From Klenkia sp. PcliD-1-E (lineage in GTDB: Bacteria > Actinomycetota > Actinomycetes > Mycobacteriales > Geodermatophilaceae): 33,003 nt of DNA. Each line of letters begins with the position of its first letter. Within the stretch, counting starts at the first letter, position 1. Positions 18,059 to 32,134 of the stretch are shown here, piece by piece. A program made the translations under genes and the position numbers. The stretch covers positions 1-33,003 of the forward strand of contig NZ_JAMXRZ010000041.1 in assembly GCF_024124375.1 (NCBI RefSeq), given 5' to 3'. The notes below the pieces were generated by a model. The model ran no database searches. It saw nothing but the letters and a program-made list of their open reading frames with translations, and had not been told where the DNA came from.

Positions 18059-19672
18059 GTGGACCCCGGCCGACTGCGACCACCCGACGGGTCGCCGCGC
18101 GCCGTCGTGGAGGCGGCGGTCGGCGACCTCGAGGTGCTGTCCCGTCCCGACGCCGACCTGGACGGCGTCCGGGACGCCGCCGAGCGGGCCGCCACCGCGG
18201 CCCGCGCGCTCGACCTCACCGAGCTCGCCCTGCGCGCGGACCTCGTCGCCGCCGACGTCGGCCGCCGCCGCGGCGACCTGGCCGATGCCGGGTCCACCGC
18301 CCAGGCCGTGCTGCGGTGGGCCACCGAGCACCGGTCCCGGTTCCTGCAGGCCCGCACGCACCACCTGCTGGCCGCGGTCTTCCAGGAGCTGGGCGACCTG
18401 TCGGTGGCGCTGGAGCACGCGGTGCACTCCGTCGACCTGCTCGACGACGACGTCCCCGTGGCCGTGCGCATCGACCACCGCAAGCGGCTGGCCGACTGCC
18501 TCGGCCTGCAGGGCGACGCCGGTGCGCAGGACCGCTACGCCGAGGTCCTGGTGCTCGCCGAGCAGCTCGGCGACGTGGCCCGGCTGTCCCAGATCCTCAA
18601 CAACAGCGCCTACACCGCCTCGCTGGCGGGGCGGCACACCACGGCGCTGGCCGCCGTCCTCCGGCTGCAGGCGATGGAGTCCGACCACGGCGTCGAGACC
18701 GACCTCGCCACCCGCGACACCATCGGCCGGGTCTACCTGGGTCTGGGCCGCCTCGAGGAGGCCGAGCAGGCGCTGCGGCCCGGGGCCGGGTCGACGCTGC
18801 GCTCGCCCTCGGCCGAGGCGGGCGCCGACGCGGACTTCCTGCTCACCCTCGCGGAGGTGCAACGGGCACGGGGCCGGCTGGGTGACGCCCGGGCGGCGCT
18901 GGAGGAGTGCGTGCGGCGCTGCGAGCGGCACGGCCTGACCGCCGTCCGCATCCGGGCCCGCCGCGAGCAGGCCGCGCTGCACGCCGACGCCGGTGACTTC
19001 GAGGCCGCCTACGCCGAGCACGTGCGGTACGCCGACGAGGCCCTGGCCCTGCAGTCCGAGCAGCGCGAGGCCCGCGCCCGCACCCTGCAGGCCATGTACG
19101 AGGCCACCGAGGCCCGCCAGCAGAGCCGCCGCTACCGCGAGCTGTCCCTGCGCGACGCCCTCACCGGCCTGTACAACCGCCGGCACCTGGACGAGCAGCT
19201 CCCCGCGTTGCTGGCCGCGGCCGCCGGGCGCCGCCCGGTGTCGGTCGGCCTGGTCGACCTCGACCACTTCAAGCGGATCAACGACACCTGCTCCCACGAG
19301 GTCGGCGACGAGGTGCTGCGCCAGGTCGCCCGGGTGCTGGAGGCCGTCGCCGCCACCGTCGGCGACGAGGCCTTCGCCGCGCGGATGGGCGGCGAGGAGT
19401 TCCTGCTGGTCATGCCCGGCACCGAGATCGGCCGGGCGACCGCGGTGCTCGAGCAGCTGCGGCACGGCATCGCGCACACGCAGTGGGGCCACCTGGTCGG
19501 CGCGCTGCCGGTCACGGTGAGCATCGGTGCCGCGGGCAGCCCCGACCCGCTGCCGCTGGACACCCCCGAGCTGCTCGGCCGCGCCGACGCGCGGCTCTAC
19601 GAGGCCAAGCGCACCGGCCGGGACCGGGTGGTCGGCCCGCGCGACGCGCTCACTCCCCGAGCGACCGGCTGA
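18059..19672 (+). CDS. TPR-GGDEF diguanylate cyclase
   Basis: A 537-residue cytosolic sensor-cyclase. Residues 1 to about 330 are helical repeats of TPR type (for example GDLADAGSTAQAVLRWA, GRLEEAEQALRPG, GDFEAAYAEHVRYADEALALQ). A coiled-coil linker (about 325-365, EQREARARTLQAMYEATEARQQ) leads into a complete GGDEF domain starting DALTGLYNRRHLDEQL. The domain has LVDLDHFKRINDTCSHEVGDEVL, an intact active site GGEEF at 444-448 and VSIGAAG. Five residues before the GGEEF the I-site RxxD is replaced by TVGD, so product inhibition is probably absent. No membrane helix. The GTG start has a weak AAGGGA upstream. The 3' end overlaps the convergent IclR gene by 23 bp. Confidence 0.92.
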   Translation: MDPGRLRPPDGSPRAVVEAAVGDLEVLSRPDADLDGVRDAAERAATAARALDLTELALRADLVAADVGRRRGDLADAGSTAQAVLRWATEHRSRFLQARTHHLLAAVFQELGDLSVALEHAVHSVDLLDDDVPVAVRIDHRKRLADCLGLQGDAGAQDRYAEVLVLAEQLGDVARLSQILNNSAYTASLAGRHTTALAAVLRLQAMESDHGVETDLATRDTIGRVYLGLGRLEEAEQALRPGAGSTLRSPSAEAGADADFLLTLAEVQRARGRLGDARAALEECVRRCERHGLTAVRIRARREQAALHADAGDFEAAYAEHVRYADEALALQSEQREARARTLQAMYEATEARQQSRRYRELSLRDALTGLYNRRHLDEQLPALLAAAAGRRPVSVGLVDLDHFKRINDTCSHEVGDEVLRQVARVLEAVAATVGDEAFAARMGGEEFLLVMPGTEIGRATAVLEQLRHGIAHTQWGHLVGALPVTVSIGAAGSPDPLPLDTPELLGRADARLYEAKRTGRDRVVGPRDALTPRATG

Positions 19673-20381
19673 TCCCCCGCGCGGCGGCCATCACGCCGTT
19701 GACGTAGGGCCGGACGACGCCCGCCGAGTCCCCGCGCACCACGATCGACAGGGCCGCCACCACCGCGCCCCCCTGCCGCACCGGCGCGGCGACCGACACC
19801 GCGTCGTCGGTGACCTGCCGGTCGCTGACCGCGTGCCCGGTGCGGCGGACCTCGGCCAGCAGCCGGCGCAGCCGGACCGGGTCGGTCACCGTGTGCGGGG
19901 TGTGCCGCTCCAGCGGGCCGGCCAGCACGGCGTCCTGCACCTCGGTGGGGGCGTGCGCCAGCAGCACCAGGCCCACCCCGGTCGGGGGCAGGGCGAACCG
20001 GCCGCCGACCTGGGTGAGCACGGTGACCGCCCCGCGCGCGGCGAACCGCTCCACGAACAGCACCTGGTGGCCCTCGCGGACGGCCAGCTGCACGTTCTCG
20101 TGGGTGACCTCGTACAGGTCCTCCATGAACGGCAGGGCCGCCTCCCGCAGACCCAGCCCGCGGGGGGCGAGCGCGCCCAGCTCCCAGATCCGCAGGCCGA
20201 CGCGGTAGCCGCCGTCCTCGTCGCGCTCCAGCCCGCCCCAGGACGACAGCTCACCGACCAGCCGGTGCGCCGTCGGCAGCGGGACGCCGACGGCGCGGGC
20301 GATCTCGGACAGGGTCAGCCGCGGCCGCTCCCGGGTGAAGGCGTCGAGGACGGCGAGCAGCTTGGTGTTCGCCGTCCGCAC
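19650..20381 (-). CDS. IclR-family regulator (linked to Rieske unit)
   Basis: A 243-residue regulator. The N-terminal winged helix is TKLLAVLDAFTRERPRLTLSEIARAVGVPLPTAHRLVGELSSWGGLERDEDGGYRVG. The IclR effector-binding domain follows with LRIWELGALAPRG, FMEDLYEVTHENVQLAVREG, and VSVAAPVRQGGAVVAALSIVV. IclR proteins with this build commonly sense aromatic acids. The GTG at 20381 lies 2 bp after the reductase stop with GGAG 8 bases upstream, so it is the last gene of the Rieske operon. It is a paralogue of the regulator at 25012-25755, with the same domain order and several shared motifs. A likely target is the palindrome at 22745-22759. Confidence 0.9.
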   Translation of the reverse strand: MRTANTKLLAVLDAFTRERPRLTLSEIARAVGVPLPTAHRLVGELSSWGGLERDEDGGYRVGLRIWELGALAPRGLGLREAALPFMEDLYEVTHENVQLAVREGHQVLFVERFAARGAVTVLTQVGGRFALPPTGVGLVLLAHAPTEVQDAVLAGPLERHTPHTVTDPVRLRRLLAEVRRTGHAVSDRQVTDDAVSVAAPVRQGGAVVAALSIVVRGDSAGVVRPYVNGVMAAARGISRSLGE

Positions 20382-20383
20382 GC

Positions 20384-21310
20384 CTACAACTCCAGCACGA
20401 GCCTCGGGCACGCCGCGCGGGAGACGCACACGAACATGACGTCGTTGGCGGCCTGCTCGGCCGGGGTGAGCAGCGAGTCGCGGTGGTCGACCTCCCCCTC
20501 GAGCACCCCGGTCTCGCAGGTGCCACAGGTGCCCTCCTCGCAGGAGCTGAGCACCTCGACGCCGTTCTCCCGCAGCACCGCCATGATGCTGCGGTCCGGC
20601 GGCACGGTCAGGGTCTTCCCGCTCAGCGACAGCTCGACCTCGAAGGCGTCGCTGCGCACCGGGTCCCCGACGTCCTTGGGGGTGAACCGCTCCAGGTGCA
20701 GCACCTCGGGCGTCACCCGCTCCTCGACCGCGGCGAGCAGGGGCTCGGGGCCGCAGCAGTACACCAGCGTGCCGGGGTCGAGGTCGCCCAGCACCGCGTC
20801 GAGGTCGATGAGCCCGACCTCGTCCTGCGGGTGCAGGGTGTGCCCCTCCAGCTCCTCGAGGAAGGCCATCGACCGGCGGCTGCGGCCGCCGTAGTGCACC
20901 TCGGCGGGGACGCCGGCGGCCCGCGCGGCGGCCACCATCGGCAGGATCGGGGTGATCCCGATGCCCCCGGCGACGAAGACGTAGCGCGGGGCCTCGACCA
21001 GCTCGAAGTGGTTGCGGGGGCCCCGCACGCAGACCTCGTCACCGGGGTGCAGCCGGTCGTGCACGTGCGCGGACCCGCCCCGGCCGGCCGGCTCGCGCAG
21101 CACGCCGATGCGGTACCGCGTCCGGTCGGCCGGGTCGCCGCACAGGGAGTACTGCCTGGTGAGGTCGTCGGTCAGCACCAGGTCGACGTGCGCGCCCGGG
21201 GTCCAGGCGGGCAGCTCGGCACCGCCGGGGTCGGCCAGCTCCAGGACGACGACGCCCTCGGCCCCGTCGGTCCGGGAGGCGACGACCAGACGCAGCTCCT
21301 GCTCGCTCAC
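20384..21310 (-). CDS. Phthalate-dioxygenase-type reductase (FMN, NAD, 2Fe-2S), Rieske partner
   Basis: A 308-residue PDR/VanB-family oxidoreductase that moves electrons from NAD(P)H through flavin to a plant-type 2Fe-2S cluster. The flavin domain has HVDLVLTDDLTRQYSLCGDP (R52-x-Y54-S55-L56), the nucleotide domain GGIGITPILPMVAAARA and YCCGPEPLL. The C-terminal ferredoxin domain has C257-x4-C262-x2-C265 and C295. All cofactor residues are present. GTG 21310 overlaps the stop of the preceding 96-residue protein gene (GTGA 21307-21310). The operon order oxygenase, small protein, reductase indicates that it feeds the Rieske enzyme at 21594-22670. Confidence 0.92.
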   Translation of the reverse strand: MSEQELRLVVASRTDGAEGVVVLELADPGGAELPAWTPGAHVDLVLTDDLTRQYSLCGDPADRTRYRIGVLREPAGRGGSAHVHDRLHPGDEVCVRGPRNHFELVEAPRYVFVAGGIGITPILPMVAAARAAGVPAEVHYGGRSRRSMAFLEELEGHTLHPQDEVGLIDLDAVLGDLDPGTLVYCCGPEPLLAAVEERVTPEVLHLERFTPKDVGDPVRSDAFEVELSLSGKTLTVPPDRSIMAVLRENGVEVLSSCEEGTCGTCETGVLEGEVDHRDSLLTPAEQAANDVMFVCVSRAACPRLVLEL

Positions 21311-21597
21311 CGCAGCGGGGTCCGCGGCCCGGCCGCCTGCTCGGGGCGCAGCACCCGGTGCGGCGGGGGCACGTGGTCGACCGGGGCGCCGGCGTCGGGC
21401 TCGGCCACCCGGGCCGGGTGGTCGGGGTGGGCCAGCAGCCACTCCCACATGCCGATCGGGTCACCGCCCTCGGCGCGGGCGCCGCACGAGCACTCCCCCA
21501 GCAACCGGTCGCTGCCGGGCAGCCACGCCACCCGGGTGACGCGGTCGCCGTCCAGCACCCGGGTCGGCGCGACGGTCTCCGTCATCGGGCGGCTCAC
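21307..21597 (-). CDS. Small protein of unknown function in the Rieske operon
   Basis: A 96-residue protein (85-92 residues if a later start, such as ATG 21585, is used). I do not recognise it. It holds a central LLGECSCGARAEGGDPIGMWEWLLAHPDH with a CxC pair, followed by a proline-rich tail HVPPPHRVLRPEQAAG. The GTG at 21597 overlaps the Rieske TGA and its own TGA overlaps the reductase GTG, so it is coupled on both sides, which argues that it is a real gene. Possible roles are a metal- or cluster-handling helper, or a subunit between oxygenase and reductase. Neither can be shown from sequence. Confidence 0.65.
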   Translation of the reverse strand: MSRPMTETVAPTRVLDGDRVTRVAWLPGSDRLLGECSCGARAEGGDPIGMWEWLLAHPDHPARVAEPDAGAPVDHVPPPHRVLRPEQAAGPRTPLR

Positions 21598-22670
21598 CGC
21601 GACGCGAGGGTCGCCGGGGAGTCGGGGACCTGCTCGGCACCGGCGGCGGCCTGCGCGGCCATGATCCGGCGCGCGGCGAGGCCACCGGTGTCGATGTTGA
21701 TCGACAGCTCCTGGTAGCCGTCCGGCTCGCCGGCCAGCACCCGCTCCAGGGCGTCCAGCGCGACGACGTCCTGCAGCACGACGGTGCGGTTGCTCTCGCG
21801 CAGGAAGTCGCTGACGCCCTCGTCCTCCAGCGCGAAGTCCCGGGCGACGGCCCAGAAGTCGTGCGTGGAGTGCTCGGTCTCCGGGGTGATGGCGTAGACC
21901 ACCTCGACGTGGAAGCCGTCGGGGTCGGTGCCGTCCTCGTCGGGCAGCACGCCGACCGGGGCGACCCGGCTGTGCAGCAGGTACAGGCACGGCGGGTGGA
22001 ACTCGATGTCCTGCCAGCGCACGATGCGGCCGTCGATGCCGGTGGACTTCGCGTAGAAGGGCGGGCAGTCGGCGTCGTCCATGTGCCGGGAGACGTAGAC
22101 GACCTGGGCGTCCTCGTCGACCTCGGTGGTGATCGGGGTGTTGGCGACCTCGGGGGTCCCGATGTAGCCGCCGTGCAGGTAGGTCTCGTGGCTGAGGTCC
22201 ATGAGGTTGTCGACCAGCAGGCTGGCCCGGGCGGCCAGCGGCTCCATGCCGCTCACCGTCGTGTACCCCTCCTGGTCCAGCCAGGGGGCGCGCGGGATCG
22301 GCACCGAGTCCGACCGGTCGTCGTCGCCGATGAAGACCCAGATGAAGGAGTCCTGCTCGACCACCGGGTAGCTCTTCAGCCGTGCGGTGCGCGGCACCCG
22401 GGTCTGGCCGGGGACGGCGACGCACTTCCCGTCGGCGTCGTAGGTGAAGCCGTGGTAGCCGCAGACGACGGTGTCGCCCACGAGGTGGGAGGGCTTCTCG
22501 CTCAGGGGGAAGCGGCGGTGCACGCAGCGGTCGCTCATCGCGGTGACGGTGCCGTCCTCGCGCCGCCAGAACAGGATCGACTCCCCGCAGATGGTGCGGC
22601 CGAAGACCTCCCGGCCGATCTCGCGCCCGTAGGCGGCGACGTACCACTGGTTGCGGACGATCGAGGTCAT
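21594..22670 (-). CDS. Rieske non-heme iron oxygenase, VanA-like
   Basis: A 358-residue terminal oxygenase of the vanillate O-demethylase/phthalate-4,5-dioxygenase type. The Rieske motif is C49-x-H51 and C70-x2-H73 (CVHRRF ... CGYHG). The mononuclear iron site is in NLMDLSHETYLHGG, with H161 and H166 as ligands and D158 as the inter-subunit electron bridge. The start MTSIVRNQWYVAAYGREIG matches the N-terminus of this family. The substrate cannot be fixed; vanillate and related methoxylated aromatic acids are the leading guess from family and from the CYP199-like P450 next door. ATG 22670, in an operon with the small protein, reductase and IclR gene. Confidence 0.9.
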   Translation of the reverse strand: MTSIVRNQWYVAAYGREIGREVFGRTICGESILFWRREDGTVTAMSDRCVHRRFPLSEKPSHLVGDTVVCGYHGFTYDADGKCVAVPGQTRVPRTARLKSYPVVEQDSFIWVFIGDDDRSDSVPIPRAPWLDQEGYTTVSGMEPLAARASLLVDNLMDLSHETYLHGGYIGTPEVANTPITTEVDEDAQVVYVSRHMDDADCPPFYAKSTGIDGRIVRWQDIEFHPPCLYLLHSRVAPVGVLPDEDGTDPDGFHVEVVYAITPETEHSTHDFWAVARDFALEDEGVSDFLRESNRTVVLQDVVALDALERVLAGEPDGYQELSINIDTGGLAARRIMAAQAAAGAEQVPDSPATLASR

Positions 22671-22744: not shown

Positions 22745-22759
22745 TTCCACGATGCGGAA
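22745..22759. promoter_or_regulatory. Candidate IclR operator upstream of the Rieske operon
   Basis: TTCCACGATGCGGAA: outer arms TTCC/GGAA and inner C/G pair with only one unpaired position, 15 bp, the size typical of IclR-family sites. It lies 75 bp upstream of the Rieske ATG and 9 bp past the P450 stop, in the 97-bp gap separating the two units. No clear -35/-10 pair was found near it. Confidence 0.4.
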
Positions 22760-22767
22760 GGTGCTGC

Positions 22768-23964
22768 TCAGCAGACCAGGCGCAGGGGGAGCGACTCCCA
22801 GGACCGCAGGGTGTTGTTCAGGTGCCGCACCGGGTCCCCGGCCAGCTCCAGCGAGGACACCCGGGCCAGCAGCGCCGTCAGCAGCGACTCCGCCTCCAGC
22901 CGGGCGACGTGCTGGCCCACGCACTGGTGGATGCCCATGCCGAACCCCACGTGGCCCGACGGGTCGCGGGTGAGGTCGAAGGCGTCGGGGTCGGCCCACC
23001 GTCGCGGGTCCCGGTTGGCCGCGGCGAAGAAGACCAGCACCTTCTCCCCCGCCGGGACGACGGCGTCCCCCACCCCGACGTCGCGCACCGTCGTCCGGAA
23101 GAACGCCTGCACCGGGGACTCCCAGCGCACCGCCTCGTCGAAGGCCACCCGCACCAGCTCCGGCCGCTCCCGCAGCAGCTGCCACGCGCCGGGGGTGACC
23201 GCCAGGGCGTGCAGCACCGCGCCGATGCCGTGCACGGTGGTGTCCACCCCGGCGGTGAGCAGCGACCGCACCACCAGCGGGGCCTGCGCGTGCGTGAGCT
23301 CGCCGCGGTCGGCCGCGGCCCAGATGTCGGCACCGAAGCCGACCGGGGCCAGGGCCTCCCGCTCGCACTGCTGCCCGACCCAGCCCGCGTGCGCGGGCAT
23401 CGAGGCGTTGCCGGCCAGCACCAGCGGGTTGTCGGTGGGCCCGAAGGCGTTGAAGGCGTGGTCGCCGTAGGGCAGCAGGTGCTCCCGGCCGTCCTTCCCG
23501 AGCCCGACCGCGTCGGGGAACACCCGCAGCGGGAAGGCCGCGGCCAGCGCGGGGACGGCGTCCAGCTCCAGCGACCCCTGTCCGAGGACGTCGGAGACCA
23601 GCGCCTCGGCGTCGGCCAGCCAGTCGGCCCGCAGCGTGCGCAGCGCCCGGGGCCCGAGCACCTTCGCCAGGACGGCGCGGGGTGCGTCGTGGTGCGGCGG
23701 GTCGGCCTCCAGCAGCAGCGACGGCGGCCGCCACGGGGTCTCGGTGCGGAAGTTGGTCAGCCCCACACCGGCCGAGGACTCGAAGGACTGCCAGTCGCTG
23801 AGCGCGGCGTGCACCTCGGCGTAGCGGGCGATCGCCCAGGTGTCGTACCGCGGCAGCCGCACCAGCGGGCCGGCGTCGCGCAACGCGGCCTGCGCGGGCA
23901 GCGGGTCGCGCAGCACCTCGGGGTCGAAGGGGTCCAGGTCCAGGGTCGGCAGCACGGCGGTCAT
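22768..23964 (-). CDS. Cytochrome P450, CYP199-like
   Basis: A 398-residue soluble bacterial P450. The I-helix has LLTAGVDTTVHGIG (A/G-G-x-D-T-T), the ExxR pair is EAVR in FDEAVRWESPVQ, and the heme loop FGMGIHQCVGQ places the thiolate at C348. Segments such as GLGKDGREHLLPYGDHAFNAFGPTDN and LTNFRTETPWRPPSLLLEADPPHHDAPR resemble CYP199 enzymes, which O-demethylate or hydroxylate para-substituted benzoic acids such as 4-methoxybenzoate. That subfamily call is from memory of the family. ATG 23964 follows the stop of a PDR-type reductase by 10 bp, so the reductase is probably its electron donor; no ferredoxin gene is nearby. Confidence 0.88.
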   Translation of the reverse strand: MTAVLPTLDLDPFDPEVLRDPLPAQAALRDAGPLVRLPRYDTWAIARYAEVHAALSDWQSFESSAGVGLTNFRTETPWRPPSLLLEADPPHHDAPRAVLAKVLGPRALRTLRADWLADAEALVSDVLGQGSLELDAVPALAAAFPLRVFPDAVGLGKDGREHLLPYGDHAFNAFGPTDNPLVLAGNASMPAHAGWVGQQCEREALAPVGFGADIWAAADRGELTHAQAPLVVRSLLTAGVDTTVHGIGAVLHALAVTPGAWQLLRERPELVRVAFDEAVRWESPVQAFFRTTVRDVGVGDAVVPAGEKVLVFFAAANRDPRRWADPDAFDLTRDPSGHVGFGMGIHQCVGQHVARLEAESLLTALLARVSSLELAGDPVRHLNNTLRSWESLPLRLVC

Positions 23965-23974
23965 CGGGTCCCCT

Positions 23975-24910
23975 TCACAGGTCGAGCACCAGGCGGTCAC
24001 CGCGGGAGCGGGACACGCAGACGAGCAGGCAGTCCCCGGCGGCCCGTTCGGCCTCGTCGAGGACCGAGTCGCGGTGGTCGGGGTCGCCGGCCAGCACGGT
24101 GGTCTCGCAGGTGCCGCAGGTGCCCTGGCGGCACGAGGACAGGACGTCGGCCCCGGCGGCGCGCACCGCCTCCAGCACGCTGACGTCGGGCGTCACGACG
24201 ACCTCGGCGCCGGTGCGGTCCAGGACGACGGTGAACGGCTCGTCGCGCACCGGGGCGCCCTGTTCGCGGGCGACGAACCGCTCGGTGCGCAGCAGCCCCG
24301 GCGGGCAGGCGGCCTCCACCGCGTCCAGCAGCGGGGCGGGGCCGCAGCAGTACACCCGGGTGCCGTCGTCCAGGCCGGTGAGCAGGTCGCCCAGCGGGAG
24401 CAGGCCGCGCTCGTCCTGCGGCCAGACGGTCACCCGGTCGTCGTCCAGCTCGTCGAGGAAGGCCATCGAGGCGCGGGTCCGCCCGCCGTACACCAGCCGC
24501 CAGTCCGCGCCGAGCCGGCGGGCGGCGTCGACCATCGGCAGCAGCGGGGTGATCCCGATGCCGCCGGCGAGGAACAGGTAGCGGGGCGCGGGCGCCAGGC
24601 GGAACTGGTTGCGCGGCCCGCCCAGGCCGACCAGGTCGCCGACGGCCAGCTCGTCGTGCACCCACGCCGACCCGCCCCGGCCGGCGGGCTCGCGCAGCAC
24701 GGCGACCCGGTAGGTGTGGGCATCCCAGCGGTCCCCGCACAGGGAGTACTGCCGGGTGTCGCCGGTGGGCAGCACCAGGTCCACGTGCGAGCCGGGGGTC
24801 CAGTCCGGCAGCCGGGCGCCGTCCGGGTCGACCAGGGTCAGCGCGACGACGCCGTCGGCCAGCCGCTGCTTGGCGGCGACCCGGACCGTGGAGCGGGCGG
24901 CGGTGGTCAT
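23975..24910 (-). CDS. Phthalate-dioxygenase-type reductase, probable P450 partner
   Basis: A 311-residue paralogue of the reductase at 20384-21310, with the same order of domains. The flavin site is TRQYSLCGD, the nucleotide domain is FLAGGIGITPLLPMVDAAR and YCCGPAPLL, and the C-terminal 2Fe-2S domain has C260-x4-C265-x2-C268 and C298. It is complete and should be soluble. It is the first gene of a two-gene unit with the P450. Because it carries its own 2Fe-2S domain, it could donate directly to the P450, resembling the reductase half of CYP116B-type fusions but as a separate protein. ATG 24910; a palindrome at 24952-24972 lies just upstream. Confidence 0.9.
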   Translation of the reverse strand: MTTAARSTVRVAAKQRLADGVVALTLVDPDGARLPDWTPGSHVDLVLPTGDTRQYSLCGDRWDAHTYRVAVLREPAGRGGSAWVHDELAVGDLVGLGGPRNQFRLAPAPRYLFLAGGIGITPLLPMVDAARRLGADWRLVYGGRTRASMAFLDELDDDRVTVWPQDERGLLPLGDLLTGLDDGTRVYCCGPAPLLDAVEAACPPGLLRTERFVAREQGAPVRDEPFTVVLDRTGAEVVVTPDVSVLEAVRAAGADVLSSCRQGTCGTCETTVLAGDPDHRDSVLDEAERAAGDCLLVCVSRSRGDRLVLDL

Positions 24911-25011: not shown

Positions 25012-25755
25012 TCAACGGGACGACGGGAGCTGGCGGCCGATGCCCCGCGCCGCCGCCCGGAGCGCCGGCACCTGCGCCCGCGCGTCGGCGTCGTTGGGCA
25101 CGATCACCGCCAGCGCGGCCACGACGGCCCCGGCCGGGTCGCGCACCGGGACGGCGATCCCGCACGCGTCGGGGTGGATGTGCCCCGGGCAGAAGGCCAC
25201 ACCCTCGCGGCGCACCTGGTCCAGCACCGACCGCAGCCGGGCCGCCGTCCCGATCGTCGCCGAGGTGAAGGTGCGCAGCGGCCCGGCGAGGGTGCGCTCC
25301 TGCAGGTCCCGCGAGGCGTGCGCCAGCAGCACCAGGCCGGACGACGAGGCGTGCAGCGGCAGCCGGCCGGCGATCCGGGTGTAGTTGACGACCGCGCCCG
25401 GTGCCGAGAGCCGCTCCAGGAACAGCACCTCGTCGCCGTCCAGCACGCCGAGCTGGGTGTGCTGGCCGACGACGGCGTGCAGGTCCTCCATCAGCGGCAT
25501 CGCCACCTCGCGCAGCGACAGCGCCGGCGAGGCCCGGGCACCCAGCTCCCACAGTCGCAGGCCCAGCCCCACCCGGCGGTCGCTCTCCCGGCGCAGCAGG
25601 CCCAGCTCCACCAGCTCGGCGACCAGCCGGGACGCCGTCGCCACGTGCAACCCCGACCGCCGGGCGATCTCGGAGACCCCGAGGACGGTCTCCCCCGGCC
25701 GGAAGGCCTCCACCACCGACACCACCCGGGCGACGGTGGACCGCGACCGGGTCAT
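25012..25755 (-). CDS. IclR-family regulator (last gene of the transporter operon)
   Basis: A 247-residue IclR regulator. The winged helix runs STVARVVSVVEAFRPGETVLGVSEIARRSGLHVATASRLVAELVELGLLRRE. The effector domain has LRLWELGARASPALSLREVAMPLMEDLHAVVGQHTQLGVLDGDEVLFLERLSAPGAVVNYTRIAGRLPLHASSSGLVLLAHA and the closing AVPVRDPAGAVVAALAVIVPN. ATG 25755 overlaps the synthetase stop (ATGA 25752-25755), so it is co-translated with the uptake and activation genes; it also sits 101 bp upstream of the reductase-P450 unit and may control both. It is a paralogue of the IclR protein encoded at 19650-20381. Confidence 0.92.
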   Translation of the reverse strand: MTRSRSTVARVVSVVEAFRPGETVLGVSEIARRSGLHVATASRLVAELVELGLLRRESDRRVGLGLRLWELGARASPALSLREVAMPLMEDLHAVVGQHTQLGVLDGDEVLFLERLSAPGAVVNYTRIAGRLPLHASSSGLVLLAHASRDLQERTLAGPLRTFTSATIGTAARLRSVLDQVRREGVAFCPGHIHPDACGIAVPVRDPAGAVVAALAVIVPNDADARAQVPALRAAARGIGRQLPSSR

Positions 25756-27251
25756 CCCTCCGCGGCGGTGGTGCGCAGCAGGGCGCGCTGCACCTTCCCG
25801 GACGCCGTCATGGGCAGATCGTCCACGACGTGCCAGCGGCGCGGGACCTTGAACGGCGAGAGCCGCTCGCGGCACCAGGCCTCCAGCTCGGCCGGGTCGA
25901 CGTCGGCGGCGACCGGGACGACGAAGGCCACCACCAGCTCGCCCCACCGCTCGTCCGGCCGGCCGACGACGGCGGCGCGGGCCACGCCGGGGTGCTCGAC
26001 CAGGGTCTCCTCGACCTCGACCGGGGACACGTTCTCCCCGCCGGTCTTGAGCATGTCCTTCAGCCGGCCGGTCACCTGGCAGCCCCCGGCCGCGGACACC
26101 GTGGCCAGGTCGCCGGTGTGCAGCCAGCCCTCGGCGTCGATGGCGGCCGCGGTGGCCACCGGGTCGTCGAGGTAGCCGTCGGTGATGCGGTCGCCGCGCA
26201 CCCACAGCTCGCCGGTCTCCCCCACCGGCACCGGGGCGCCGTCCGGGCCGGCGATGCGCACCTCGGTGCCCGCGATGGGCCCGCCCACGGTGCCCCGGCG
26301 CACCTCGTCGGGGTCGTCCGGGCCGGCCATCAGCGCGCACCCGCAGGTCTCGGTCATCCCGAACGTGGTGGCCAGCCGCGCACCGAACGCGGCCTCCACC
26401 CGGTCGACGAAGGCCGGCGTCACGGTCATCCCGCCGGTGAACAGCACCGCCAGGTCGGGCAGGTCGGGGACGCCCTCGGCCACCATCAGGTCCAGCAGCG
26501 TCGGCGCGGCCGAGAGCATCGTGACCCGGGACGACGCGAGGACGTCCAGGACCGCGGCCGGGGCGAAGGGCAGCACCACGTGGTCGGCCCGGGCCCACAG
26601 CGCCCCCACCACGCCGAGCACGTTGCCGGCGGTGTGGAACAGCGGCATCGGGTTGCACCACACCCGCCCGGCCGACGGCCCGAGCCGCTCGGCGAACGCG
26701 GCGCCGGTCGCCACCATCCCGGCGTGGGTGATCCGCACGCCCTTGGCCCGCCCGGTGGTGCCGGAGGTGAACTGCACCTGGGCCAGCGAGCCGGGGTCGA
26801 CGACCGGGAGCTCGACGGGGTCGGCCAGCAGCGAGCGCCAGTCCTCCACCACGGGCAGCCCGGCCATCGCCGTCCCCAGGTCCGCGACGGCCAGCGACGC
26901 CCCCGAGAGGGCGACCGCGTGCTCGACCTCGGCCGGGCGGGACCGCGGGTTGACCGGCACCAGGGTCTGCCCGGCCAGCGCGACGCCGAGCTGCACGAGC
27001 ACCGGTGCCGGCCCGTTGGCCAGGCAGGTGGCCACCCGCGCCCCGGGACCGGCCGCGGCGAGCAGGCCCGCGGCGAGGGAGGTCGCATCGGCGAGCAGCT
27101 GCGCCGCGCTCCAGCGCTCGCCGGTCGCCGGGGTCGAGAGCAGGACGTCGTCCGGCCCCCGGTCGACGGCCCGGCGGAGGACGTCACCCAGGACTCCGTC
27201 CGCCGGGCCGGTCGCCGGCGCCCGCAGCTCGCTGGTCACGAGTGCGGGCAC
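25752..27251 (-). CDS. AMP-forming acyl/aryl-CoA synthetase
   Basis: A 499-residue ANL-family enzyme. Core motifs are QFTSGTTGRAKGVRITH (P-loop, A3), TFGMTETCG (A5), GELWVRGDRITDGY, GWLHTGDL (A7), GRLKDMLKTGGENVSPVEVEE (A8 hinge) and PMTASGKVQR with the catalytic Lys (A10). It would activate a carboxylic acid to its CoA ester through an adenylate. The operon context with an ABC importer and aromatic oxygenases suggests an aromatic acid or a side-chain acid, but the specificity pocket cannot be read reliably by eye. The GTG start at 27251 is 3 bp after the stop of the binding-protein gene. Confidence 0.9.
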   Translation of the reverse strand: MPALVTSELRAPATGPADGVLGDVLRRAVDRGPDDVLLSTPATGERWSAAQLLADATSLAAGLLAAAGPGARVATCLANGPAPVLVQLGVALAGQTLVPVNPRSRPAEVEHAVALSGASLAVADLGTAMAGLPVVEDWRSLLADPVELPVVDPGSLAQVQFTSGTTGRAKGVRITHAGMVATGAAFAERLGPSAGRVWCNPMPLFHTAGNVLGVVGALWARADHVVLPFAPAAVLDVLASSRVTMLSAAPTLLDLMVAEGVPDLPDLAVLFTGGMTVTPAFVDRVEAAFGARLATTFGMTETCGCALMAGPDDPDEVRRGTVGGPIAGTEVRIAGPDGAPVPVGETGELWVRGDRITDGYLDDPVATAAAIDAEGWLHTGDLATVSAAGGCQVTGRLKDMLKTGGENVSPVEVEETLVEHPGVARAAVVGRPDERWGELVVAFVVPVAADVDPAELEAWCRERLSPFKVPRRWHVVDDLPMTASGKVQRALLRTTAAEG

Positions 27252-27254
27252 CGG

Positions 27255-28508
27255 TCAGCTCCCGTAGGAGAAGGACTCGGCGCTGGGCCCGCTGATCTGG
27301 TCCAGCAGCTCCAGGCCGGCCTCGGCCTCGTTGCTCACCCGCGAGATGAACACCGTGGTGGTCGGGGACTGGCCCAGCTCCGAGAAGTCCAGGTCGTCGG
27401 GCAGCACACCCTGGGTGTCGACCGTGCCGCCGTCGCGGAAGGCCGCCACCACGCCCTCCGGGGTGAGGTCACCGGCCTCGCAGGCGCCGTCGAGCGCCTG
27501 CTTGAGCAGCTCGGCCTGCACGTAGGCCAGCGGCACCTCCCAGCCCAGCGCACCCTGCGGGTCGGCCGAGGCGTAGAGCTCGTTGGCCGCCTGCACGCCC
27601 GCCGAGTCGGGGTTGTCGTAGGGCGACTCCGCGGTGATCGAGTACACGTTGGCCAGCAGCGCGTCCGCGGCCGGGGTGCCCAGCAGCGAGGGGTTGAAGG
27701 TCGGGTTCATGCCGATGATCGGCACGTCGGCGCCCTGCGCGGACAGCACGCCGGCCAGCGAGGCCAGCTGGGTGGGCGCGGCGGCCAGCACGACGCCGGC
27801 GACCCCGGCCTGGGCCAGCGCGGAGGCCTGCGCGGACAGGTCGGTGGTCTGGGAGGTGATCTCCTGGGCCACGACCTGCAGCCCCCGCTCGTCGGCCGCG
27901 TGCTCGGCGCCGGCCAGCGCGTCGCCGCCGTAGTCCCCGGTGAAGTAGACGACGCCGATGGAGGAGCCCTCGGCCACGCCCAGCTCGTCGACCAGGTAGT
28001 CCACGGCGTTGGCCCCCTGGATCGCGTAGGACGCACCGGGCAGCTGGTTGTTCTCGTAGGCCAGCGCCGACCCGGCCCAGCCCACGCCGCCCACGTACAC
28101 GGAGTCCTGCTCGGCCAGCGGCAGCACCGCGGCGCTGGTCGGGCCGCCGAGCACCTGCTGCAGGGCGATGACGTCGGGTGCCATCGAGCGGTAGAGCGTC
28201 ACCGCGCGCTGCGGGTCGTAGCCGTGGTCCTGCACGTCGACGGTCACGTCGCGGTCGCAGACCCCGCCGTCGGCGTTGACCTGGTCCCAGTAGGCCTGGG
28301 TCTCGGTCACCTGCACCGCGGCGCCGGCGGCGAAGGGCCCGGAGAGGTCGGTGAGCATGCCGATGGTGATGGCGTCGTCCGTCACGCCGTTGCCGGTCGT
28401 GACGTCGTCCCCACCTCCTCCGCCGGAGGCGGTCGGGGCGGTGGTGCTGCAGGCCGCCAGCGCCAGGGCGGCGGCGGCGAGCGTGGCTGCGCGGACGCGG
28501 TGCTTCAT
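27255..28508 (-). CDS. Branched-chain-type ABC transporter solute-binding lipoprotein
   Basis: A 417-residue type I periplasmic-binding-fold protein of the LivK family. The leader MKHRVRAATLAAAALALAACSTT has a lipobox LAAC, so the mature protein begins at Cys20, anchored outside the membrane; a Gly/Thr-rich tether (TASGGGGGDD) follows. The domain starts ITIGMLTDLSGPFAAGAAVQVTETQAYWDQVNADGG, as in LivK-like proteins, and contains YFTGDYGGDALAG and GMNPTFNPSLL. Members of this group bind amino acids, but many bind aromatic acids such as benzoates, which fits the operon. ATG 28508 overlaps the LivM stop (ATGA 28505-28508). Confidence 0.92.
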   Translation of the reverse strand: MKHRVRAATLAAAALALAACSTTAPTASGGGGGDDVTTGNGVTDDAITIGMLTDLSGPFAAGAAVQVTETQAYWDQVNADGGVCDRDVTVDVQDHGYDPQRAVTLYRSMAPDVIALQQVLGGPTSAAVLPLAEQDSVYVGGVGWAGSALAYENNQLPGASYAIQGANAVDYLVDELGVAEGSSIGVVYFTGDYGGDALAGAEHAADERGLQVVAQEITSQTTDLSAQASALAQAGVAGVVLAAAPTQLASLAGVLSAQGADVPIIGMNPTFNPSLLGTPAADALLANVYSITAESPYDNPDSAGVQAANELYASADPQGALGWEVPLAYVQAELLKQALDGACEAGDLTPEGVVAAFRDGGTVDTQGVLPDDLDFSELGQSPTTTVFISRVSNEAEAGLELLDQISGPSAESFSYGS

Positions 28509-29632
28509 CGGGTGGTCTCCTTCGACCGGGAGGGCTCCCCGGCGACCGGGCGGTCGGCGGGTGGGACGGGAGCAGGGGGTGCCGGCCGGAGCCGGTCGCG
28601 CAGCCGGCGGGCACCGCCGGCCAGGCCGCCGCGCAGGAACACCAGGACGGCGATGATCGCCAGCCCGTAGACGATCCGGGACGCGGTGGAGGGGTCCAGG
28701 CCGCCCGAACCGGGCGCGGCGAGGAAGGGCAGGGCCGAGCTGTACTGGGCCAATACCAGCGGCAGCGAGGTCACGAAGACCGCCCCGACGACGGCGCCGG
28801 CCACCGAGCCGAGCCCGCCGAGCACGATCATGACCAGGTAGTCCACCGACGCGGTCAGGCTGAACACGTCGGGGGCGACCCGGCCGTAGGCCAGCGCCAG
28901 CATCGCGCCGGCCACCCCGGCGTAGGCCGAGGAGACGACGAACGCCGATCGCTTGGCCCCGGCGACGCCGACGCCCATCGCGGCCGCGGCGGTCTCGGAG
29001 TCCCGGACGTTGGCCCAGGCCCGTCCGGTGCGGCCGCCGCGGATGTTGGCGGCCAGCCAGATCGCCGCGACGGCGAGCAGCAGGAACAGGTACCAGAGCC
29101 GGTGCAGGCCCTCGAACTCCACGCCGGCGACCGCCAGGTAGTCGGGGTCGCGGTTGCTGAAGCTGAACCCGCCGACGGCAAAGGGCTCCACCGACCGGCC
29201 GACGAACCCGCCGGTCCAGGAGTCGAGGTTGACCAGCAGGTGCCGGACGACGAAGACCAGCCCCAGCGTGGCCAGGCCCAGGTAGATGCCGCGCAGCCGG
29301 CCGGCGACCGGGGAGAACGCCGCGCCCACCCCGGCGGCGACCAGCGCGGCCAGCACCAGGCCCAGCAGCGGCGGTAGGCCCAGGCCTTCCACCGTCGTCG
29401 TCGACTCGCCGGTGGTGTAGGCGTAGACGTAGGCCCCGATCGCGGCGAAGGCCGCGTGGCCCAGGGACAGCTGGCCGGCGACCCCGACGAGCAGGGTCAG
29501 ACCGACCGCGCCGATGGCGGTGGCCATCACGAACAGGCCGGTCTGCAGCCAGAAGTCGCTCAGCACGAACGGCAGCGCCAGCGCGACCAGCAGCAGCACC
29601 AGGCCGACGACCTTGCGCGGGGCGTCAGACAC
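28505..29632 (-). CDS. Branched-chain-type ABC transporter permease, LivM
   Basis: A 375-residue polytopic permease with about ten membrane helices. LivM hallmarks are GVAGQLSLGHAAFAAIGAYVYA near the N-terminus, GRTGRAWANVRDSETAAAAMGVGVAGAKRSAFVVSSAYAGVAGAMLA in the coupling region (EAA-type loop contacting the ATPase), and MIVLGGLGSVAGAVVGAVF. A proline-rich, basic C-terminal tail of about 40 residues follows. GTG 29632 overlaps the LivH 3' end by 8 bp. Its partner subunits are LivH and the fused LivFG protein. Confidence 0.93.
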   Translation of the reverse strand: MSDAPRKVVGLVLLLVALALPFVLSDFWLQTGLFVMATAIGAVGLTLLVGVAGQLSLGHAAFAAIGAYVYAYTTGESTTTVEGLGLPPLLGLVLAALVAAGVGAAFSPVAGRLRGIYLGLATLGLVFVVRHLLVNLDSWTGGFVGRSVEPFAVGGFSFSNRDPDYLAVAGVEFEGLHRLWYLFLLLAVAAIWLAANIRGGRTGRAWANVRDSETAAAAMGVGVAGAKRSAFVVSSAYAGVAGAMLALAYGRVAPDVFSLTASVDYLVMIVLGGLGSVAGAVVGAVFVTSLPLVLAQYSSALPFLAAPGSGGLDPSTASRIVYGLAIIAVLVFLRGGLAGGARRLRDRLRPAPPAPVPPADRPVAGEPSRSKETTR

Positions 29633-30518
29633 GGACGGCCTCCTTGCTGCCCAGCAGGCCCGAGGGCCGCACGAGCAGGACGACGATCATCACGACGTAG
29701 GGCGCGACCTCGCCGAACCCCGACCCCAGGAAGGGCTCCAGGTCGGACTCGTAGCCGGTGACCAGCGCGCTGGTCAGGCCGATCAGCAGGCCGCCGACCA
29801 CCGCGCCGGGCACGGAGTCGAACCCGCCCAGCACCCAGGCCGGGATGGCCGCGAACGCGCTGAGCGCGACCGTCGGCGCGACGCCCGGGGCGGGGAAGGA
29901 GGTCAGGAAGATGCCGGCGACCGCGGCGAGGATGCCGGCCAGCGCCCAGCCGGTGGCCGCCGTCCGGGACAGCCGGATGCCCATGAGCGAGGCGGTGGGG
30001 CCGTCGGCGGCCGCGGCCCGCATGCCCACGCCCAGGTCGGTGCGGGAGAACAGGTACCAGAGCGCACCGAAGGCGACGAGCGTGACGCCGGCGGCGAGCA
30101 CCCGGCCGGTGGGCAGCGTGATGTCGCCCAGCCGCACCACCGAGGCGCCCCACGGCGCACCCAGGGTGAGCACCTGGTTGCCGATCCGGCGGGTGAGCTC
30201 GGTGAGCAGCACGATGTCCACGCCGAGCATGAGGATCGCCGCCGTCCCCGGGTTGGGGTCGGCGAGGTTGCGCACCAGCAGCGCGTTGATCAGCACGCCG
30301 ACGACGGCCGCGCCGGCCAGCCCGACGAGCACCGCGGGCCAGAAGCCGATGGTGTCGTGCAGGACGGCGACCAGGTAGGCGCCCAGCAGCACCACCGAGC
30401 CGTGCGCGAAGTTCAGCACGCCGGTGGAGGTGAACACGATGGCGAACCCGGCGGCGATGAGGCTGAGCACCAGGCCGTAGGACAGCCCGTTGAGCACCTG
30501 CTCCAGGAAGTAGCTCAT
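29625..30518 (-). CDS. Branched-chain-type ABC transporter permease, LivH
   Basis: A 297-residue inner-membrane permease. It opens LEQVLNGLSYGLVLSLIAAGFAIVFTSTGVLNFAHGSVVLLGAYL, the classic LivH start, and has SRTDLGVGMRAAAADGPTASLMGIRLSRTAATGWALAGILAAVAGIFL as its coupling segment and a late DSVPGAVVGGLLIGLTSALV. About eight membrane helices. ATG 30518 overlaps the stop of the fused ATPase gene (ATGA 30515-30518) and the 3' end overlaps LivM, so stoichiometric production by coupled translation is likely. Confidence 0.94.
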   Translation of the reverse strand: MSYFLEQVLNGLSYGLVLSLIAAGFAIVFTSTGVLNFAHGSVVLLGAYLVAVLHDTIGFWPAVLVGLAGAAVVGVLINALLVRNLADPNPGTAAILMLGVDIVLLTELTRRIGNQVLTLGAPWGASVVRLGDITLPTGRVLAAGVTLVAFGALWYLFSRTDLGVGMRAAAADGPTASLMGIRLSRTAATGWALAGILAAVAGIFLTSFPAPGVAPTVALSAFAAIPAWVLGGFDSVPGAVVGGLLIGLTSALVTGYESDLEPFLGSGFGEVAPYVVMIVVLLVRPSGLLGSKEAVRV

Positions 30519-32092
30519 GCGGCTGTGCCCTCTCCTGCGGAAGCTCCGAGGTAGGCCCGCAGCACCTCGGGGTCGCGCTGCACCTGCGCCGGCGTGCCCT
30601 CGGCGATCTTCTTGCCGAAGTCCAGGACCGTGACCTGCTCGGCCAGGCCCATGACGAAGGGCATGTCGTGCTCGACCAGCACGATCGACAGGCCCAGGTC
30701 GCGGCGGACCTGCCGGATGGTCTCGGCCATGTCCTGGCTCTCCCCGTGGGTCATGCCGGCGACCGGCTCGTCGAGCAGCAGCAGCGAGGGCCGGGCGGCC
30801 AGCGCGCGGCCCATCTCCACCCGCTTGCGGTCGCCGTAGGCCAGCGTGTGCACCGGGGTGCGCAGCAGGTGCGCGATGCCCAGCAGCTCGGCGATGCCGG
30901 CGACGGTCTCCCGGTGCTCGCGCTCCTCCCGGCGGGCGCCGGGCAGCTTCAGCGCGCCGGGCAGCAGGCCGCGGCGCATCAGCCGGTGCCGGCCGACCAG
31001 CAGGTTGTCCTCGACGGTGTCCTCGAGGGCCAGGGAGATGTTCTGGAAGGTGCGGGCCACGCCGAGACCCGCGACCCGGTCCGAGCGCAGGGCGGTCAGC
31101 TCGGCGTCGCCGTAGTGCACGCTCCCCTCGGTGGCCCGGTAGGCGCCGCCCAGGACGTTGACCAGCGTGGACTTGCCGGCGCCGTTGGGGCCGATGAGGG
31201 CGTGCACGGTGCCCGGCTCGACGGTGAAGGAGACCTCGGACAGCGCCGTGATGCCGCCGAAGCGGACGGTCAGGCCCTCCACGCGCAGCTGCTGCGGCGG
31301 CTCGGCGGTGGGGATCGCGGGCTCGCCGGTCACCGCGGCACCGGCGACGACGGGGGCGGCCGCACCCAGGTAGCGCTCGCGCACCTCGTCGCTGGCCGAC
31401 AGCTCGTCGGCGGTCCCCGACGCGGTCACCCGGCCGGTCTCCAGCACGTAGGCGGCGTCGGCGACGCGCAGGCCCATGACCGCGTTCTGCTCGATCAGCA
31501 GCACCGCCGTCCCCTGCTCGTTGATCTCGGTGACGATCTCGCCGATCTGGTCGACCAGCAGGGGTGCCAGGCCGAGGGAGGGCTCGTCGAGCAGCAGCAG
31601 CTGCGGGCTGACCATGAGCGCCCGGCCCATGGCGAGCATCTGCTGCTGGCCGCCCGAGAGCAGGCCGCCGGGCTGGTCGCGCCGCTCGGCCAGGATCGGG
31701 AAGAGGTCGAACACCCGGTCGCGGGCCGCGGCGCGCGCCTTCGCGTCCTTGACGGTGTAGCCGCCGGCGCGGAGGTTCTCGGCGACGGTGAGGTCGCGGA
31801 AGATCCGCCGTCCCTCGGGGACCTGCACCAGGCCGCGGCGCACGACGTCGGCGGCGTCCCGGCCGGCCAGGTCCTCGCCGGCGAAGCGGACGGTGCCGCC
31901 GGTGACGGTGCCGCCGTAGGGCTGCAGGGAGCGGGAGACCGCCCGTAGCAGCGAGGTCTTGCCGGCGCCGTTGGAGCCCAGCACGGCGACGACCTGGCCG
32001 GGCTCGACGACGAGGGAGACGTCCGACAGCGCGGTGATCGTGCCGTCGTAGACGACGTCGAGGTGCTCGACGGACAGCAGCGGTGGGGACAT
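30515..32092 (-). CDS. Fused LivF-LivG ABC transporter ATPase
   Basis: A 525-residue protein made of two complete ABC domains. The first (1-242) is LivF-like: Walker A GSNGAGKT at 39-46, LSGGQQQM signature near 145, Walker B LLLLDEPSLGL near 166-175, and LIEQN switch. The second (270-520) is LivG-like: Walker A GPNGAGKST at 301-309, signature LAYGDRKRVE near 417-426, Walker B LLLLDEPVAGM near 437-447, and VEHDM switch. A Pro/Ala linker (243-268) joins them. In most bacteria these are separate livG and livF genes. ATG 32092 is preferred (AAGGA 5-10 bases upstream); the GTG just before it adds one residue. First gene of the six-gene operon. Confidence 0.93.
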   Translation of the reverse strand: MSPPLLSVEHLDVVYDGTITALSDVSLVVEPGQVVAVLGSNGAGKTSLLRAVSRSLQPYGGTVTGGTVRFAGEDLAGRDAADVVRRGLVQVPEGRRIFRDLTVAENLRAGGYTVKDAKARAAARDRVFDLFPILAERRDQPGGLLSGGQQQMLAMGRALMVSPQLLLLDEPSLGLAPLLVDQIGEIVTEINEQGTAVLLIEQNAVMGLRVADAAYVLETGRVTASGTADELSASDEVRERYLGAAAPVVAGAAVTGEPAIPTAEPPQQLRVEGLTVRFGGITALSEVSFTVEPGTVHALIGPNGAGKSTLVNVLGGAYRATEGSVHYGDAELTALRSDRVAGLGVARTFQNISLALEDTVEDNLLVGRHRLMRRGLLPGALKLPGARREEREHRETVAGIAELLGIAHLLRTPVHTLAYGDRKRVEMGRALAARPSLLLLDEPVAGMTHGESQDMAETIRQVRRDLGLSIVLVEHDMPFVMGLAEQVTVLDFGKKIAEGTPAQVQRDPEVLRAYLGASAGEGTAA

Positions 32093-32134
32093 CACGGTCC
32101 TTCGGGATCGGACGAGGTGGTCCAGGTCACGGGA

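Follow-up and report, generated by a model that had tools for sequence, protein, structure and literature searches.

How a cytochrome P450 obtains its electrons when no ferredoxin gene lies beside it is the question raised by a pair of genes from Klenkia sp. PcliD-1-E, located in the stretch of 33,003 nucleotides analysed here (the window). A preliminary description of this DNA had recognized a CYP199-like P450 preceded by the gene of a reductase carrying flavin and 2Fe-2S domains, and had regarded a discrete donor of the phthalate dioxygenase reductase (PDR) type as an uncommon electron-transfer arrangement for such a P450. In the comparisons below, we take Pux to be the ferredoxin, and PuR the flavoprotein, of the CYP199A4 system.

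CYP199A4 is encoded in a CYP199A4-HaPux-HaPuR operon (PMC10825196), and the contrast drawn earlier between that system and the window is a fair one. In Rhodococcus jostii RHA1, PbdA and its cognate reductase PbdB O-demethylate p-methoxybenzoate, veratrate and isovanillate with O2 and NADH, PbdB containing near stoichiometric amounts of flavin and iron-sulfur cofactors (PMC11530827); in the main text of that article, for which a correction has been published, the words "ferredoxin" and "phthalate" are both absent. Judging from sequence and from the analogy with PbdAB, the window pair is very probably a two-component P450 O-demethylase of the PbdAB type, whose reductase would feed the heme directly. 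With this, the locus is placed as a PbdAB-like pair carried by a genome of the Klenkia type, and the claim of novelty falls, as this arrangement has already been described and recurs widely in close relatives.

The P450 and reductase genes

The P450 gene (22768-23964, minus strand, as are all window features described below) encodes 398 aa when read from an ATG, and the open reading frame originally listed, with a GTG start at 24000, overlaps the reductase gene. The product was assigned as a CYP199A-type, PbdA-like P450 from its PDB match, motifs and tree position. It displays the heme motif FGMGIHQCVG at residue 341, the I-helix motif AGVDTT at 238 and ExxR at 277. PbdA of R. jostii RHA1 (9g9q) was the top PDB match with 595.9 bits, above CYP199A4 (467.8 bits) and 2fr7, which we take to be CYP199A2 (445.5 bits), so the earlier CYP199-like assignment holds.

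The substrate-binding residues reported for PbdA, namely R84, S87, L90, R236, S237, A241, T245, V288 and F291 (PMC11530827), correspond to R79, S82, L85, R233, S234, A238, T242, V285 and F288 in the window P450; all nine mapped residues are thus kept, including the carboxylate-binding Arg/Ser/Ser set of the CYP199A group. They were also invariant across 11 actinobacterial CYP199s, in an alignment that leaves out one non-CYP199 P450 (24%). Phe173 and Phe176, as numbered in PMC11530827, misfit the offset of the other residues of that article and are outside the nine counted; by motif, they probably correspond to F171 and F174 of the window P450.

Directly upstream lies a gene for a PDR/VanB-type reductase of 311 aa (23975-24910), with flavin, NAD and C-terminal 2Fe-2S domains in a single chain. 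Its TGA stop codon is followed by AGGGGACCCG (10 bp) and by the ATG of the P450 gene. The flavin motif RQYS is found at residue 53 and the NAD motif GGIGITP at 116, and the plant-type 2Fe-2S cysteines C260, C265, C268 and C298 are at the C-terminal end; Pfam matches to Fer2 (50.8 bits, cut-off 21) and NAD_binding_1 (28.5 bits, cut-off 22) agree with this layout, as had been described. The closest PDB relatives were 6kbh (267.0 bits) and 6laa (260.8 bits), both reductase parts of self-sufficient P450s, and then 2pia (192.6 bits), the phthalate dioxygenase reductase; together with the separate open reading frame, these matches uphold the reading of a discrete PDR-type donor. The same top matches, 6kbh, 6laa and 2pia, were obtained with a modest-quality fold model (mean pLDDT 74.5, below 50 in the 2Fe-2S loops); TM-scores to the query were 0.64 to 0.67 and whole-chain rmsd values 10.6 to 12.3, and the model adds little to the sequence evidence.

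Relation to known redox systems

The likeness to PbdAB extends from the closest solved P450 and the same substrate residues to a one-chain flavin and iron-sulfur reductase (PMC11530827). In the genome of R. jostii NBRC 16295, a P450 matching PbdA with 842.3 bits likewise has a PDR directly upstream, whose match ends 54 bp before the P450 and which is 69% identical to the window reductase; from this locus and the cofactors reported for PbdB, we infer PbdB to be a PDR-type protein, and the window reductase to be of the PbdB type. The window differs in that its P450 is 68% identical to that of R. jostii NBRC 16295, its activity is a predicted one, and a Rieske demethylase cluster adjoins the pair.

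CYP199A4 and CYP199A2 (Rhodopseudomonas, Pux and PuR) belong to the same P450 family and share the substrate-binding residues (PMC11530827), but CYP199A4 has separate redox proteins in its operon (PMC10825196), and the proteobacterial plasmid loci examined here carried no adjacent PDR gene. On the window contig, a stand-alone Fer2 or Fer4_15 ferredoxin gene, as in a three-component system of the CYP199A4 type, was absent. CYP116B enzymes (6kbh; 6laa is CYP116B46) contain a PDR-type part with FMN and 2Fe-2S (PMC11889516) in one fused chain, whereas the window holds two genes, the first ending in its own stop codon and the second starting anew 10 bp further on. A CYP116B-type fusion split by a frameshift was rejected, given that each open reading frame has a start of its own and is of full length, and that the two-gene state is kept in 79 of the best 80 loci among at least 496 relatives. 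Elsewhere in the same genome, an open frame of 835 aa with P450 and 2Fe-2S matches (contig 207, 46065-48188) probably encodes a CYP116B-like fused P450, by its sequence.

GcoAB (CYP255A, PMC6021390) likewise comprises two proteins, a P450 and a reductase with its own 2Fe-2S domain; however, the P450 is of another family, and GcoB carries its 2Fe-2S domain at the N-terminus, the window reductase at the C-terminus, where residues 225-306 match residues 2-85 of 5ogx (GcoB). Membership in this group was thus rejected on domain order. VanB, with FMN, NADPH and 2Fe-2S domains, is the reductase of Rieske vanillate demethylases (PMC9867520), so that a discrete reductase of this type, far from uncommon, is an ordinary partner, and the window itself holds one such gene at 20384-21310. 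VanAB has the same reductase type but a Rieske oxygenase, and the Rieske-linked reductase of the window falls in a separate branch, as detailed below.

Conservation of the gene pair

For the survey, one genome per species was searched (84,980 species), yielding at least 496 relatives of the P450, of which the best 80 were used. These were all actinobacterial by title and 65 to 95% identical to the window P450, so the survey spans close relatives only. A PDR match lay directly upstream on the same strand in 79 of these best 80 of at least 496 loci, R. jostii included, with match ends -1 to 138 bp apart (median 54), a distance that somewhat exceeds the true intergenic gap. The recurrence of the pairing makes the adjacency in the window more than chance, and, together with the published two-protein PbdAB system (PMC11530827), it overturns the view of an uncommon arrangement. 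At the single exception, a Mycobacterium locus (L108), there is an IclR match together with a PDR of 59% identity some 5.5 kb downstream. In the window, an IclR-family regulator gene recognized by Pfam lies upstream of the pair (25012-25758), and an IclR match was present somewhere in 73 of the best 80 of at least 496 loci. The consistently co-occurring ferredoxin that the preliminary description had raised as a counter-argument did not appear: tblastn with one Pux-like query gave no match above 35 bits in the best 80 of at least 496 loci, a search of limited recall, since the 2Fe-2S protein annotated 1.7 kb from the P450 in L138 went undetected.

A second search of 60 relatives yielded 18 genomes, that of the window included, with 19 P450 matches at E <= 1e-80, 17 of them adjoined by a PDR. 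At L130 there was no PDR within the 1.5-kb flanks of the P450, and at L131 a PDR lay near the P450 but on the opposite strand. In an evenly drawn sample of the phylum (396 genomes, four candidates scored per genome), four genomes matched at E <= 1e-80, the window's own among them, and the three other P450s, at about 40% identity, had no PDR in their 1.5-kb flanks. From this sample and the 79 pairings among the best 80 of at least 496 loci, the P450 itself is sparse across the phylum, and the pairing regular in its close copies. Within the window's genus, the P450 gene was found in 7 of 8 other genomes, the absentee (G403) being 73% complete; the locus of one of them (G398) is identical over 7041 bases to that of Klenkia marina in the survey (L031), which places the window genome with Klenkia.

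Among plasmids, 50 records had a match and 16 were examined. A PDR was directly upstream of the P450 in all five actinobacterial loci, and an adjacent PDR was found in none of the 11 proteobacterial loci. In 7 of these 11, a stand-alone 2Fe-2S protein is encoded beside or near the P450, six by annotation and one by tblastn (L014, with a P450 that matches CYP199A4 closely at 781.5 bits); L133, L137, L140 and L141 had no recognized redox partner near the P450. Two Paracoccus plasmids (L012, L132) carry two different P450 genes in tandem, then a single 2Fe-2S protein and a single FAD reductase, the P450s following an ABC transporter of the branched-chain type, a kind shared with the window.

Phylogeny of P450s and reductases

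Trees were built by a quick method from 53 P450 and 50 reductase rows, drawn from 31 of the best 80 (of at least 496) genome loci and chosen others, and both were flagged for long branches. In the unrooted P450 tree, which answers the call for a P450 phylogeny in the preliminary description, PDR versus ferredoxin as partner required one change when rows with no partner were left out, and seven when these were scored as a third state; the ferredoxin label of L138 was set by hand from annotation. The donor type thus follows the P450 branch, with PDR in the close actinobacterial CYP199s and a ferredoxin-like gene, or no recognized donor, in the 11 copies studied from proteobacterial plasmids, a pattern useful for choosing redox partners of lignin-demethylating P450s.

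In the reductase tree, 37 of 39 P450-adjacent PDRs formed one branch (SH-aLRT 97), which contains the window copy, that of R. jostii NBRC 16295 (used here in place of RHA1 PbdB) and the downstream PDR of L108, while the Rieske-linked reductases of four genomes of the window's genus formed another (SH-aLRT 97). Three reductases were placed outside the main branch, namely those adjoining the P450 in L129 and L135 and the one located near it in L131. The window's P450-linked reductase is 67% identical to a Rhodococcus plasmid copy versus 58% to the other PDR of the window. From the branch split and these identities, the gene upstream of the P450 most likely encodes its dedicated reductase partner.

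Neighbouring genes

Downstream of the P450, at a distance of about 100 bp, lies the gene of a VanA_C-domain Rieske oxygenase (Pfam; 21594-22670), followed by a 92-aa open reading frame with no Pfam match (21307-21585) and by the second PDR-type reductase, the presumed Rieske partner (20384-21310, its GTG start picked by eye). The window also contains a second IclR-family regulator (19650-20429) and an AMP-binding, acyl-CoA ligase-type protein (25752-27251), both recognized by Pfam, and a branched-chain-amino-acid-type ABC transporter with a binding protein, two permeases and an ATPase with two ABC_tran stretches (27255-32095). Among the best 80 of at least 496 loci, a strong match to the ligase was seen only in Klenkia marina.

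The distance between P450 and Rieske oxygenase varies within the genus: 1.4 kb in G396, 10.5 kb in G397 and 10.8 kb in G398, where homology breaks a few bases from the P450 stop codon (window 22759-22768), and over 200 kb or different contigs in G399 to G402. Therefore, the two pairs are separate units, and the inclusion of the Rieske oxygenase and second reductase in the P450 unit was ruled out; furthermore, no Rieske match above 100 bits was found in the best 80 of at least 496 loci, whose flanks were covered out to at most 7 kb. The stretch that G397 has at this junction carries ABC-transporter, solute-binding and PaaX-type regulator genes.

On the Pseudonocardia plasmid pBCI1-2 (L135, 2159-5691), genes for a Rieske oxygenase, a small protein, one PDR and a CYP199 are found in a row. 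The Rieske oxygenase is 72% identical to that of the window, and the small protein (3220-3486) is kin to the 92-aa open reading frame at the same position (52% over 46 aa, two cysteines kept), whose product is perhaps a small companion of the Rieske demethylase. In the reductase tree, the PDR of the plasmid clusters with the window's Rieske-linked reductase (SH-aLRT 94, not starred) and lies apart from the main P450-linked branch. As this single PDR lies between both oxygenases, one reductase might serve both heme (CYP199) and Rieske demethylase within the family, a tentative and rather doubtful proposal, and the only lead of this locus beyond the known arrangement; in the window, the two demethylase pairs stand side by side.

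Alternative electron donors and substrates

The PbdAB-type reading draws on gene order, domain order, motifs, closeness to PbdA, conserved residues and the conserved pairing, all obtained here. If the P450 were instead fed by a stand-alone ferredoxin encoded elsewhere, in the manner of CYP199A4, which is used with HaPux and HaPuR (PMC10825196), the upstream PDR would serve another oxygenase. The stand-alone 2Fe-2S proteins of the seven proteobacterial plasmid loci would agree with this, as would two Fer4_15 ferredoxin matches in the genome, neither on the window contig. However, kin of these two ferredoxins were absent from the surveyed loci (two narrow queries), a Pux-like ferredoxin had no match in the genome (a search run without positive control), and all 12 Fer2 matches of the genome fall in open frames of at least 205 aa, an open frame possibly exceeding the gene. 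On the window contig, the Fer2 matches are the two PDR reductases, and there is no Fer4_15 match, which confirms that the P450 has no neighbouring ferredoxin gene. Set against the PDR directly upstream in 79 of the best 80 of at least 496 loci, and the single-query search in which those loci gave no Pux-like match above 35 bits, a remote ferredoxin donor is highly improbable.

The two PDR reductases of the cluster could also be interchangeable, either of them feeding both Rieske oxygenase and P450, in keeping with their 58% identity, the closeness of the P450 and Rieske genes in the window and the single PDR of pBCI1-2. Their positions in different starred branches, and the P450 and Rieske oxygenase lying apart as separate units in all seven further members of the genus that have both genes, make this unlikely. 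As for the substrate, PbdA also oxidizes p-ethylbenzoate efficiently (PMC11530827), so another para-substituted benzoate, such as 4-ethylbenzoate, might be the natural one in place of methoxybenzoates; yet RHA1 does not grow on p-ethylbenzoate according to the same article, and the residues by which PbdA binds p-methoxybenzoate are kept in the window P450, which leaves this idea quite improbable. We therefore retain the PbdAB-type reading for the window pair.

Proposed reaction

Cofactors, NADH use, substrate and direct electron transfer would carry over from PbdAB and phthalate dioxygenase reductase. The flavin (FMN) of the reductase would accept a hydride from NADH and pass electrons one by one to the C-terminal 2Fe-2S domain of the same chain; this tethered domain would dock on the P450 and reduce the heme directly, and a separate ferredoxin would therefore be superfluous in this proposal. 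Arg79, Ser82 and Ser234 of the P450 would bind a para-methoxybenzoate, whose methoxy carbon would be oxidized, giving formaldehyde and the corresponding para-hydroxybenzoate; p-methoxybenzoate would thus yield 4-hydroxybenzoate, and veratrate would yield vanillate. By this analogy, the pair looks like an ordinary actinobacterial copy of PbdAB, an enzyme that demethylates methoxybenzoates derived from lignin. The genome also contains a pobA-like gene (490.9 bits, below the curated cut-off of 538.7), located together with pcaHG-like (protocatechuate-dioxygenase) genes on contig 35, and the expected products could therefore enter the protocatechuate pathway.
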